From Chloroflexota bacterium (GTDB lineage: Bacteria; Chloroflexota; Anaerolineae; UBA2200; JACIWT01): a DNA stretch of 64,000 bases. The stretch is taken from positions 1-64,000 of the forward strand of contig JACIWT010000004.1 of NCBI GenBank assembly GCA_014360825.1, read 5' to 3'. The first letter of the stretch is position 1, and each line of letters starts with the position of its first letter. The notes below the pieces were generated by a model. It saw only the letters and a program-made list of their open reading frames with translations, was not told the origin of the DNA and did not search any database. A program made the position numbers and the translations under genes. Shown here one piece after another: positions 52,823-56,272 of the stretch.

Positions 52823-52883
52823 CCACGCCGCCAAGTGAGTTTGGCGGCTACATTCGCCCACAAGCCCACTATGTTCAGCGGCA

Positions 52884-53092
52884 GTTGCACTTATGTTCAG
52901 CGGCAGTTGCACTGCCGCGACTCGTATTGCTTGGCACTCGATGTTGCGGATACCCCCGCAGTGCAACTGCGGGGGAACAGATTTGTGGCCGTTGCACTTA
53001 TGTTCAGCGGCAGTTGCACTGCCGCGACTCGTATTGCTTGGCACTCGATGTTGCGGATAGCCCCGCAGTGCAACTGCAGGGGAACGGATTTA
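52884..53092. repeat. two direct copies of a 107-bp block
   Basis: Copies begin at 52884 and 52991 with GTTGCACTTATGTTCAGCGG. Each contains AGCGGCAGTTGCACTGCCGC and CCCGCAGTGCAACTGC hairpins separated by CTCGTATTGCTTGGCACTCG. A shorter half-unit precedes them at 52870. The block fills the gap between the MacB operon and the convergent restriction-type genes; no gene is seen. Confidence 0.9.
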
Positions 53093-53131: not shown

Positions 53132-54310
53132 CTAAGTCCTGTAGCGAGTGATCAAATCCTGGGCTGTCTGATATCCCCGGCACATGCCATTGATCGGACA
53201 GTCCGTGCACCTCGGCACGTCATGGTTAAAGCAGTAGTTTGTGCCAATGTGTACGAGGCCATCATCCAAATCGCCGATAGCGTAGCCGGAGTCCAAGAGG
53301 AGTGCATTCGGGATTCTTTGGATCTCGATTTTTGTTGGGACTCTTCGTTGCACTGCCAAGTGCTCCAGCACGACAGATTTATATGCCTCTCCAAACTCAC
53401 CCGATATCTCGGCACGAGTCGATTTCTTACCCCGGATGTTCGTTACCCGCAGGTAGTCTAATCCGCCTTTTCCCTTGCCCCTCTGAATGACGTTCCATCT
53501 TTCATAGTCTTCTATGCTTGCCCAGTCAAGTAAGAATCCGGTGCGGAATAAGACGCGTCCCACATTGCTGTCCAGTGGCAATTCATGCGAGAGAGGCCCC
53601 CAGGTGTTGCCTTTCCTTTTCACCAACCTGAAAGTGTAAACGTACCATTTGGCGAACAAATGGCCTGCTTTATCTCCTATTGCTTTGCCCAGGCCATAGC
53701 GCCTGTGATCCTTTATCTGCTGGCTCATAATCTCGGCAGAGGGCCAACTTTCAAAGTAATCCACAAGGGGTTCAATCGTGTCCTCCTGGCTCCTCTCTTT
53801 TTCCAACAGCAGAGGGAGACACAATGCAGTGCCCCATCGCGAGACAGCATAATTCAGAGCTTGTTTTGAGTTGTCCAGGAACAGATTGTACTTATTGGCG
53901 CTGGTTTTATTCACGCGGGCCCAATCATCTGCTCGGATCTCTTTGATGCTATCATGCTCTTGCAAAATCCTGTCAATGGAGATTCCAAATTCCCTGAAGA
54001 ATTCTAATGGCTTATGAAAGATGCGGATCTCTCTTCGATACAGATCGTTCACTACACTTTTCACTAATAGTCGAACGCCTTCGAGATCTGGGCCTTGATC
54101 CAAGACTGCACTCAAAAGTAAGAATCTGGTCAAGACCTCTCTGCGAGTCCATAACCCATCAATTTCATCCAGCCCCATCAGGGAACCATCCTGGCTTAGG
54201 TAGTGACGAAAGGGGAAGAACTCGCTCAACGGCGGAGGGGAGGGATGTTGTCGTCCCAGGTGGGCAATCTCGAGTACGAGTTCGTTACTCTGAATCTGGT
54301 TCCGAATCAT
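53132..54310 (-). CDS. HhH-GPD/[4Fe-4S] DNA glycosylase-like protein paired with a methyltransferase
   Basis: A 392-residue protein whose second half looks like the EndoIII/MutY superfamily. It has a helix-hairpin-helix-like YGLGKAIGDKAGHLFAKW (Lys214), an LPLDSNVGRVL segment with Asp247 at the place of the catalytic Asp (compare VPVDTHV), and a C-terminal cluster C360-x7-C368-x2-C371-x5-C377 like the EndoIII iron-sulfur loop (x6 there). An N-terminal 100-residue part has no match that I know. It overlaps the DNA methyltransferase gene by 26 bp (start ATG 54310), the usual layout of a restriction-modification pair. I infer a glycosylase or AP-lyase-type restriction enzyme. Other roles (repair of the modified base) are possible. 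The pair is lower in G+C than its surroundings. Confidence 0.6.
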   Translation of the reverse strand: MIRNQIQSNELVLEIAHLGRQHPSPPPLSEFFPFRHYLSQDGSLMGLDEIDGLWTRREVLTRFLLLSAVLDQGPDLEGVRLLVKSVVNDLYRREIRIFHKPLEFFREFGISIDRILQEHDSIKEIRADDWARVNKTSANKYNLFLDNSKQALNYAVSRWGTALCLPLLLEKERSQEDTIEPLVDYFESWPSAEIMSQQIKDHRRYGLGKAIGDKAGHLFAKWYVYTFRLVKRKGNTWGPLSHELPLDSNVGRVLFRTGFLLDWASIEDYERWNVIQRGKGKGGLDYLRVTNIRGKKSTRAEISGEFGEAYKSVVLEHLAVQRRVPTKIEIQRIPNALLLDSGYAIGDLDDGLVHIGTNYCFNHDVPRCTDCPINGMCRGYQTAQDLITRYRT

Positions 54311-55250
54311 ATTTACCGCCCTTTTCCCGGAAAGCAAGGTCGAACAAACTTTGCTGGGGCGATTGACGTGCGCGTGTCTTCTGGCTTCGCTTTGCAGTAC
54401 CCTTTTGGGCTCCTTCATACACAGGCAATTTCTCGAAAACGGCAATGAGCTGTTCTCTGAGGTTCAGAGGTTCATTTAGCCGTTGCTTGGCGATTTGCAC
54501 GTACTTTTCCTTCACTTCGTAGCCAATCCAGTGCCGTTCGAGGGCGCGAGCCACCTTTGTTGTGGTTCCAATACCCAGAAATGGATCTAACACCAAATCA
54601 CCTGGGTAAGAGAAGAGGCTAATCAGCCGATAAGGGATCTCTTCAGGAAAGGGGCAGGGATGCTCGTACTGGTTAGGAGGAACGGGCGCAATGTGCCAGA
54701 CGTTGTTGGCCAATTCTTTGGTGAACAGGTCATCAATTGGGATTCTGTTGTGCTCTTTTTCTGTATGGGTTTTCCCGCGATAAATTTTGGGGCCCGGTTT
54801 TCGGAAGATAAGGATATACTCTGTCATGATATTGGGACAGTAATAGCCAGGATACGGGTGTTGTATTGTGACCCCTGCCCTTTTCACTCCCCCTGTAACT
54901 TTGTGCCAGACAATATCCTGATGAAACTCAAAGCCCAGTTTTTCCATCAAAGACACGAAATGTTGAGGCAAGGGATAGTGCTTTCCATTAAACAGGACAG
55001 TGCCGATCACCACACAGCAGAACCTCCCTGGCTTCAGAACGCGATAACATTCTTGGAAGCAAGTGTTTAACCAGGCCAGGTACTTCTCGTAAGCATCGCC
55101 TTTTCGCGTGCGATACCAGCTGGTCTCGTCTTGAACGTGAACATCGTAGTCAATTGCGTTCCAATACGGAGGGGAAGTGATGATCAAATCTACTTGACCA
55201 TCTGCCAATTCATCCATTTTCTCACAGGATTTCAGTAAAATCTCGTCCAT
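54285..55250 (-). CDS. type II DNA methyltransferase, N4-cytosine/N6-adenine class
   Basis: A 321-residue DNA methyltransferase of beta organisation. The catalytic motif IV is TSPPYW (25-30), the form most often seen in N4-cytosine enzymes. The SAM motif I comes near the end, LVLDPFLGIGTTTKVARALE, with WIGYEVKEKYVQIAKQRL. A target-recognition part lies between. The C-terminal tail is basic and rich in Gln. ATG 55250 was taken as start; AGGA lies about 11 bases upstream. The HhH-GPD/Fe-S gene overlaps its 3' end. The recognition sequence cannot be told. Codon use and G+C differ from the neighbours, suggesting transfer. Confidence 0.9.
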   Translation of the reverse strand: MDEILLKSCEKMDELADGQVDLIITSPPYWNAIDYDVHVQDETSWYRTRKGDAYEKYLAWLNTCFQECYRVLKPGRFCCVVIGTVLFNGKHYPLPQHFVSLMEKLGFEFHQDIVWHKVTGGVKRAGVTIQHPYPGYYCPNIMTEYILIFRKPGPKIYRGKTHTEKEHNRIPIDDLFTKELANNVWHIAPVPPNQYEHPCPFPEEIPYRLISLFSYPGDLVLDPFLGIGTTTKVARALERHWIGYEVKEKYVQIAKQRLNEPLNLREQLIAVFEKLPVYEGAQKGTAKRSQKTRARQSPQQSLFDLAFREKGGKYDSEPDSE

Positions 55251-55363
55251 CCGGGCTCATTCCTTTGCGACTATCGGATACCCACCGCTAGCCTGCCTTG
55301 CCAGCGCCTCGCATACACATTATAATCGCAATAGCGATTCTATGTCAAAGGAAGGTGGCAGTT

Positions 55364-56272
55364 ATGCTCGCACTCGTACTTAGCGGGGGCGGCTGCCGTG
55401 GCGCAATCCAGGCCGGCGCCGCCCAAGAGTTATTCGAACACGGCATCATTCCGGAGATGTACGTCGGCACCTCAGCCGGGGCGCTGAACGCCGTCTTCTT
55501 GGCCACCGAGTCCACGTTGGCCAACGCCCAGCGGCTGAGCAGCGCCTGGCTGAGCGCCCGCGCCGAGGACATCTTCCCTCGCAACCCCGTCCTGGCTGCT
55601 GCGCGGCTCCTGGGCCGTCGCGACGGCCTCTTTGACAACGATGGCTTGCGCCAGTTTATCGCCTCCCGACTTCCACCCGGCGTGCGCCGCTTCGGGGACC
55701 TGGCCGCCCGCGCCTACGTCACCGGCACCAATCTGAATACCGGGACCCTCCGGGTCTTCGGAGATGACCCCGATGACCTGATCCTGGATGGCCTGATGGC
55801 CAGCACCGCTCTGCCACCCTACTTCCCGCCCTGGGAATGCGAGGGCTACCAATACGTGGACGGTGCGGCCGTGGCCGGGCTGCCCATTGGCGTGGCCCTG
55901 GACCGCGGCGCCACCGAGATCTACGCCGTCACCGTGGAGTACTGCGGGGAGACGGTGGGCGAGGTACGGGGTATCCTGCCCATCGTCGAGCAGACCCTGA
56001 ACGCGATGACCTACCAGCAGTTGCTCTGCGACTTGGAACGTTGCCGCCAGAGACCCGGCGTGACCCTGCACCTGGTTGCCGTCTGCCAGTTCCAGGGCAT
56101 CCCGATGTGGGATATGAGCCAGGCCGCCGAGATGGTGAAGGCAGGTCGCGCTGCCATGCGGACCTACCTGGAGACCGGCAAGCCGCTCATTGTTACCCCA
56201 CCGCGGCGTGACCTCTGGGGGCAAATCCGCCGCCCCCTGCAACGCGCTCTGACTCGCCTATCCCGCCGCTGA
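55364..56272 (+). CDS. patatin-like phospholipase
   Basis: A 302-residue patatin-family lipid acyl hydrolase. It has the oxyanion-hole motif LSGGGCRGAIQAGA, nucleophile Ser37 in VGTSAGALNA and catalytic Asp166 in YVDGAAVAGLPIG. It has no signal peptide, so it acts in the cytoplasm or at the membrane face. ATG 55364 has GGAAGG upstream. Members hydrolyse phospholipids; some are effectors of defence systems, but nothing here shows that. It is divergent from the restriction-type pair, with starts about 110 bp apart. Confidence 0.9.
   Translation: MLALVLSGGGCRGAIQAGAAQELFEHGIIPEMYVGTSAGALNAVFLATESTLANAQRLSSAWLSARAEDIFPRNPVLAAARLLGRRDGLFDNDGLRQFIASRLPPGVRRFGDLAARAYVTGTNLNTGTLRVFGDDPDDLILDGLMASTALPPYFPPWECEGYQYVDGAAVAGLPIGVALDRGATEIYAVTVEYCGETVGEVRGILPIVEQTLNAMTYQQLLCDLERCRQRPGVTLHLVAVCQFQGIPMWDMSQAAEMVKAGRAAMRTYLETGKPLIVTPPRRDLWGQIRRPLQRALTRLSRR

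Follow-up and report, generated by a model that had tools for sequence, protein, structure and literature searches.

A two-gene module in the window, the 64,000-nucleotide stretch of Chloroflexota DNA analysed here, probably encodes a mobile, Type II-like restriction-modification system in which the restriction component, R, is a DNA glycosylase/AP-lyase built on an EndoIII/MutY-type scaffold. Its partner, M, is a DNA amino-methyltransferase. We also consider it fairly probable that R represents a second, independently evolved class of restriction glycosylase, in which a repair fold with an Fe-S cluster has become a sequence-specific toxin that works with two methyltransferase subfamilies. The gene pair, the fold of R, its candidate catalytic and Fe-S residues, the linkage to the methyltransferase, the mobility of the pair, the exchange of partners and the decay of R were read from sequence comparison and structure prediction.

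Both genes are on the minus strand. M (54285..55250; 321 aa) is the first gene of the pair and is followed by R (53132..54310; 392 aa, ATG at 54310), the predicted HhH-GPD/[4Fe-4S] protein proposed as the restriction glycosylase/AP-lyase. The first-pass annotation had described a methyltransferase gene overlapping a 392-codon gene by 26 bp, and this was borne out, the overlap running from 54285 to 54310. A longer form of R beginning at a TTG codon (437 aa) was ruled out because the closest relative keeps the ATG at 54310 and the added residues are merely an other-frame reading of the methyltransferase gene. In the TA06 member (L002:5944-6072), R-frame homology was observed upstream of the first ATG, in a stretch that holds no ATG, GTG or TTG. 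Upstream of M, a promoter-like TTGACA-18-TATAAT sequence (55319..55348, minus strand) agrees with the consensus at 12 of 12 positions and reads through M into R; the same promoter stands ahead of the pair in the nearest relative (L023).

M was readily classified, matching PF01555 (N6_N4_Mtase) with E=5.8e-48 and the PADLOC family MTase_II PDLC03353 with E=5.2e-72. Its motif IV is TSPPYW, a beta-class N4mC-type signature and the typical motif of N4mC enzymes. The nearest solved structures were TTHA0409 (2zie, E=3.9e-36) and the cytosine-N4 methyltransferase 8s9m (E=4.6e-17). M is read as modifying an exocyclic amino group, in the window copy probably N4 of cytosine.

R matched no Pfam family over the cut-off, no NCBIfam family and no PADLOC family, there was no nuclease match in Pfam or PADLOC, and the HhH-GPD profile PF00730 did not match R even at E<=10. 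Since PF00730 does not recognise it, we regard the R family as a divergent sister family that is neither EndoIII nor MutY. Scans of the R sequence alone against Pfam, NCBIfam, PADLOC and PDB picked up only the Fe-S segment, and the last 40 residues resemble MutY (TIGR01084, E=0.0067). A relatives search of GTDB contigs returned two full-length homologues with 55% and 61% identity, and searching whole genomes, either with R or with its alignment, brought in further members from Chloroflexota and from the phylum of the TA06 genome. The family now holds 18 open-frame members, one of them cut by a contig end; in addition, L110 is a decayed copy, and L030 and L108 are short C-terminal fragments. 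Viral contigs, phages and plasmids yielded no relatives. Weak class-wide matches restricted to profile positions ~310-391 (L018-L022, L046-L052 and similar ones) were not counted as members because they look like ordinary MutY/EndoIII Fe-S loops. Between the window R and its nearest relative (G341), dN was 0.027 and dS 0.49, so the reading frame is under strong purifying selection. R thus belongs to a genuine, conserved family.

The motifs that the first reading had picked out, GLGKAIGDKAG with K214, LPLDSNV with D247, and C360-x7-C368-x2-C371-x5-C377, are all present in R, and their conservation in relatives shows that they are not accidental. Across 15 relatives of about 50-94% identity, the residues invariant wherever covered are QGPD (72-75), RYGLG (204-208), K214, P245-x-DSN (247-249) and the cysteines. 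QGPD (codons 72-75; 54086..54097, minus strand) falls in the register of the AQ-T-D / QQT intercalating-loop residues of EndoIII/MutY. K214 (53669..53671, minus strand), within the HhH-like AIGDKA, is the candidate Schiff-base lysine in the register of EndoIII K120, and D247 (53570..53572, minus strand), within PLDSN, is the candidate catalytic Asp in the register of EndoIII D138. Both are kept in every alignment row reaching these positions, even in the decayed L110, in which, as in L038, the motif's other lysine (K209) is replaced by Ser. A conserved Lys at the place equivalent to K214 marks bifunctional glycosylase/lyases, unlike MutY. The four cysteines (53180..53233, minus strand), candidate [4Fe-4S] ligands in a segment matched by the MutY profile and by hhalign, are kept in all frame-intact members covering them. 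The divergence from EndoIII proposed earlier likewise stands: K and D lie 33 positions apart rather than about 18, the first cysteine interval is x7 rather than x6, and PF00730 is silent. In the HhH of R, AIGDKA also takes the place of GVGRKT, the first hairpin Gly being Ala.

As a line of evidence separate from the structural model, the R family alignment was compared with 30 EndoIII/MutY proteins from related genomes. By hhalign, the family matched Chloroflexota EndoIII/MutY over the pre-cluster helix and the four cysteines with E=2.7e-5; the four-Cys loop of R is one residue longer than C-x6-C-x2-C-x5-C, yet it was aligned to it. When the Fe-S segment was removed, hhalign gave E-values of 0.01-0.08, none significant alone, with a best local match that placed D247 on the catalytic-Asp column, and a diagonal test with permutations was therefore used. 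About 98,000 ungapped diagonals of 20 columns were scored; outside the Fe-S region, the top one put D247 on the catalytic Asp (z=6.1), a score reached by 6 of 1000 permutations. The registers of K214 and of QGPD/Q72 (both z=4.4) ranked 40 and 37, respectively, of 104,760. All the matched segments are collinear.

The structure of R was predicted with AlphaFold2 from 22 rows of the family only, EndoIII/MutY rows being kept out as circular. An earlier model from 13 rows reached a pLDDT of 48 and was discarded along with its fold search. The final model (pLDDT 83.3, pTM 0.83) is nearly all helix, lists a single three-residue strand and has low confidence in the region 101-160. The second helix of the HhH (212-227) bears K214 near its start, and the helix 248-256 starts directly after D247, as in EndoIII. 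A Foldseek search of the model against 350,542 PDB chains returned HhH-GPD DNA glycosylases as its top six matches: 8fay, 3n5n_X/Y, 7ef9 and 7ef8 (MUTYH), and 1xqo (AGOG). The probability was 0.82-0.96 for five of these six, with modest E-values of 0.085-0.55 and a TM-score of at most 0.51 when target-normalised (MUTYH) and 0.22-0.37 when query-normalised. The modest E-values and low query-normalised TM-scores are due to insertions in R, which amount to about 60 residues between wedge loop and HhH, about 15 between K214 and D247 and about 60 between D247 and the cluster, relative to EndoIII. These three lineage-specific insertions are candidates for sequence-specific recognition.

The seventh match was the DUF2419 queuine salvage enzyme, which we take to have a glycosylase-like fold likewise. 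No nuclease fold, HALFPIPE or UDG was present among the PDB matches, and a search of a viral fold library yielded nothing. The agreement on one superfamily among the top matches is beyond chance, and the predicted fold of R is HhH-GPD. The glycosylase-type core first suggested from the motifs thus agrees with the model, which is helical, has HhH-GPD proteins as its best PDB matches and lacks a PD-(D/E)xK or HNH core.

The link between R and a methyltransferase, whose lack in relatives would have counted against the first reading, holds across the family: at 19 of the 19 loci with a visible neighbour, the gene immediately upstream of R is an amino-methyltransferase of like orientation that either overlaps R or ends no more than about 20 nt from it. 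The Chloroflexota members of R are partnered by TSPPYW methyltransferases, and the four members from the TA06 phylum by TDPPF methyltransferases resembling CcrM. Identity of the window R is 61-62% with its TA06 counterparts and 49-55% with most other Chloroflexota R proteins, whereas the window M shares only 26-27% with the TA06 M proteins and 54-66% with those of Chloroflexota. Because R is near its TA06 counterparts and M is far from theirs, R has swapped its methyltransferase partner and come to lie directly against the replacement. Such a swap with renewed abutment is expected if R needs protection by a methyltransferase and is poorly explained by passive synteny. Two neighbouring arrangements were also observed. 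In the TA06 genome (L002:3671-5025), two extra genes, one without a family and one of DUF6884, lie directly before the M-R pair, beside type I restriction-modification genes. In G847 (L107:4420-5505), R is followed by a second methyltransferase, to which a MerR-like helix-turn-helix domain is fused.

The pair is mobile, co-inherited and patchily distributed, like Type II restriction-modification systems. Its GC content is 0.488, compared with 0.599 +/- 0.030 for the window, and lies under that of all 124 sampled windows. R was present in three of the seven genomes of the order; class-wide, 17 of 396 gave hits, about 11 of them true R members. Other genome sets gave matches in 4 of 48, 3 of 20 and 17 of 251 genomes, several of these matches being plain MutY-type. 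The copies in the window and in G341, at 93-94% identity, have no flanking genes in common within the compared stretches. Decay was seen on the R side of the pair: beside an intact M, the R gene of G686 is missing the N-terminal region, roughly 80 residues ahead of the Fe-S loop and one of the cluster cysteines; its sister locus, in G685, is complete. The R gene of G421 has shrunk to a C-terminal remnant, its last 66 codons; a PLD-type nuclease gene lies against this remnant (L030:437-1499), as if one defence gene had been swapped for another. The low GC content, patchiness, differing flanks, partner exchange and decay of R beside an intact M are hallmarks of a restriction-modification system.

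For such a system we infer a defence role in which R would have glycosylase and lyase activity and would be sensitive to methylation. The cell would probably be protected because R removes bases from incoming DNA lacking the mark, with no direct cut of the backbone. M would methylate an exocyclic amino group within a short target and thereby shield the site, and R would bind the same target. At an unmethylated site, R would flip out a base and, aided by D247, break its N-glycosidic bond. A Schiff base formed by K214 would then lead to beta-elimination, cleaving the strand where the base is missing; alternatively, host AP endonucleases would complete the break. The lyase role is assigned to K214 because this residue is conserved as in the bifunctional EndoIII and is not replaced as in MutY.

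HhH-GPD enzymes mostly act in repair, and the MUTYH-, AGOG- and ROS1-like matches of R are repair or demethylation enzymes, so R could instead accompany M as a glycosylase for repair or guarding, clearing mismatches or lesions that arise from M itself or from deamination of its product, in the manner of MIG or Vsr. Among the rival readings this is the main one. Mismatch glycosylases linked to methyltransferases do exist, and nonetheless we judge this reading unlikely. M is an amino-methyltransferase, and N4mC deaminates to uracil, which general repair deals with, so that a dedicated partner is unneeded, unlike for 5mC. The host also has EndoIII/MutY-like genes elsewhere, R is tied to two methyltransferase subfamilies, R and M move as a unit, and it is R that decays while M stays. 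In a second reading, R excises the methylated base itself. It would then be either a ROS1/DEMETER-like demethylase, making the mark an epigenetic switch that can be reversed, or a restriction enzyme dependent on modification. Plant ROS1/DME, which belong to the HhH-GPD [4Fe-4S] enzymes, remove a methylated base, and ROS1 was among the weak profile matches to the Fe-S segment of R. Constant removal of the self mark placed by the product of the overlapping gene would be suicidal, though, and the common operon together with the state of intact M and decayed R fits protection by M better; we hold this reading to be very improbable.

We give the least credence to an ordinary Type II nuclease in which an HhH-GPD-like scaffold serves for DNA binding only and the insertions hold a phosphodiesterase site. 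The insertions of about 60, 15 and 60 residues relative to EndoIII could house such a site, further invariant acidic residues lie outside the glycosylase motif, and the region 101-160 is of low confidence in the model. Against this, the almost fully helical model could accommodate neither a PD-(D/E)xK core nor an HNH core of the beta-beta-alpha type, the PDB matches include no nuclease fold, and both glycosylase residues are invariant. A restriction glycosylase remains our preferred reading of R, although several points count against it: PF00730 does not detect R, the Foldseek E-values are modest and the query-normalised TM-scores low, and the Ala in the HhH hairpin, the K-D spacing and the Cys interval depart from EndoIII.

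R can be set against several known groups of proteins. MIG is a T/G mismatch glycosylase of the HhH-GPD [4Fe-4S] type encoded beside a 5mC methyltransferase. R resembles it in being a predicted HhH-GPD [4Fe-4S] glycosylase whose gene is linked to that of a DNA methyltransferase; however, MIG has a 5mC methyltransferase as its partner and repairs the deamination product of that partner's mark, whereas the partner of R is an amino-methyltransferase (PF01555 N6/N4) from two exchangeable subfamilies. With the EndoIII/MutY branch, including MUTYH and ROS1/DME, R shares the predicted fold, the registers of the catalytic Lys and Asp, the helix preceding the Fe-S loop and a candidate four-Cys cluster at the C-terminus; it differs in being missed by PF00730, in its three insertions, in the K-D spacing of 33 and the Cys x7 interval, and in always being linked to a methyltransferase. 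Hydrolytic Type II endonucleases have PD-(D/E)xK, HNH, GIY-YIG or PLD cores, and R has no nuclease core by Pfam, PADLOC or fold search.

In a 2023 review, those who discovered restriction glycosylases state that all known restriction families except PabI are phosphodiesterases, and the PabI/HALFPIPE family is the only known family of restriction glycosylases (PMC10273834). In PabI systems, R is disrupted more often than M (PMC4615327). The PabI family (R.PabI, R.CcoLI) would resemble R, by analogy, in base excision and AP-lyase action at an unmethylated site, which for R is proposed only; it also resembles R in its tight linkage to an amino-methyltransferase, its mobility and the frequent disruption of R beside an intact M (PMC10273834, PMC4615327). 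In contrast, R.PabI has the HALFPIPE fold, whereas the window R has an all-helical HhH-GPD model and a four-Cys loop. The antiviral DNA glycosylases Brig1 and Brig3 use base excision as anti-phage defence (PMC11078745, PMC13160076); unlike R, they belong to the uracil-DNA-glycosylase superfamily, act on modified bases of phage DNA and work without a partner methyltransferase.

Restriction by base excision is thus a known strategy, and the fold and family proposed for it here are new; no paper on an HhH-GPD restriction enzyme was found in a search of the open-access literature. If the proposal is true, base excision would have arisen two or more times as a means of restriction, a fold from DNA repair would prove convertible to sequence-specific attack, and a tractable fold would provide a sequence-specific tool for base removal. 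The two genes offer a direct test of a general question, namely whether epigenetic immune systems employ whichever DNA-damaging chemistry is available.

Two further features flank the pair in the window. Upstream, divergent and overlapping promoter-like sites were observed at 55298-55348, one for the restriction-modification operon (12/12) and one for a patatin-like gene (55298-56272; 11/12), with the palindrome AATCGCTATTGCGATT inside this region. This arrangement could permit shared regulation of the operon and the patatin-like gene. Just downstream of R, at 52880-53091, a 105-nt element with 22-nt inverted arms is present in two tandem copies (96% identical, spacing 107). There is no third copy in the window, and at other loci the element was found solely where they overlap the 52880-53091 stretch. 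It is possibly a small mobile element or an integration scar.
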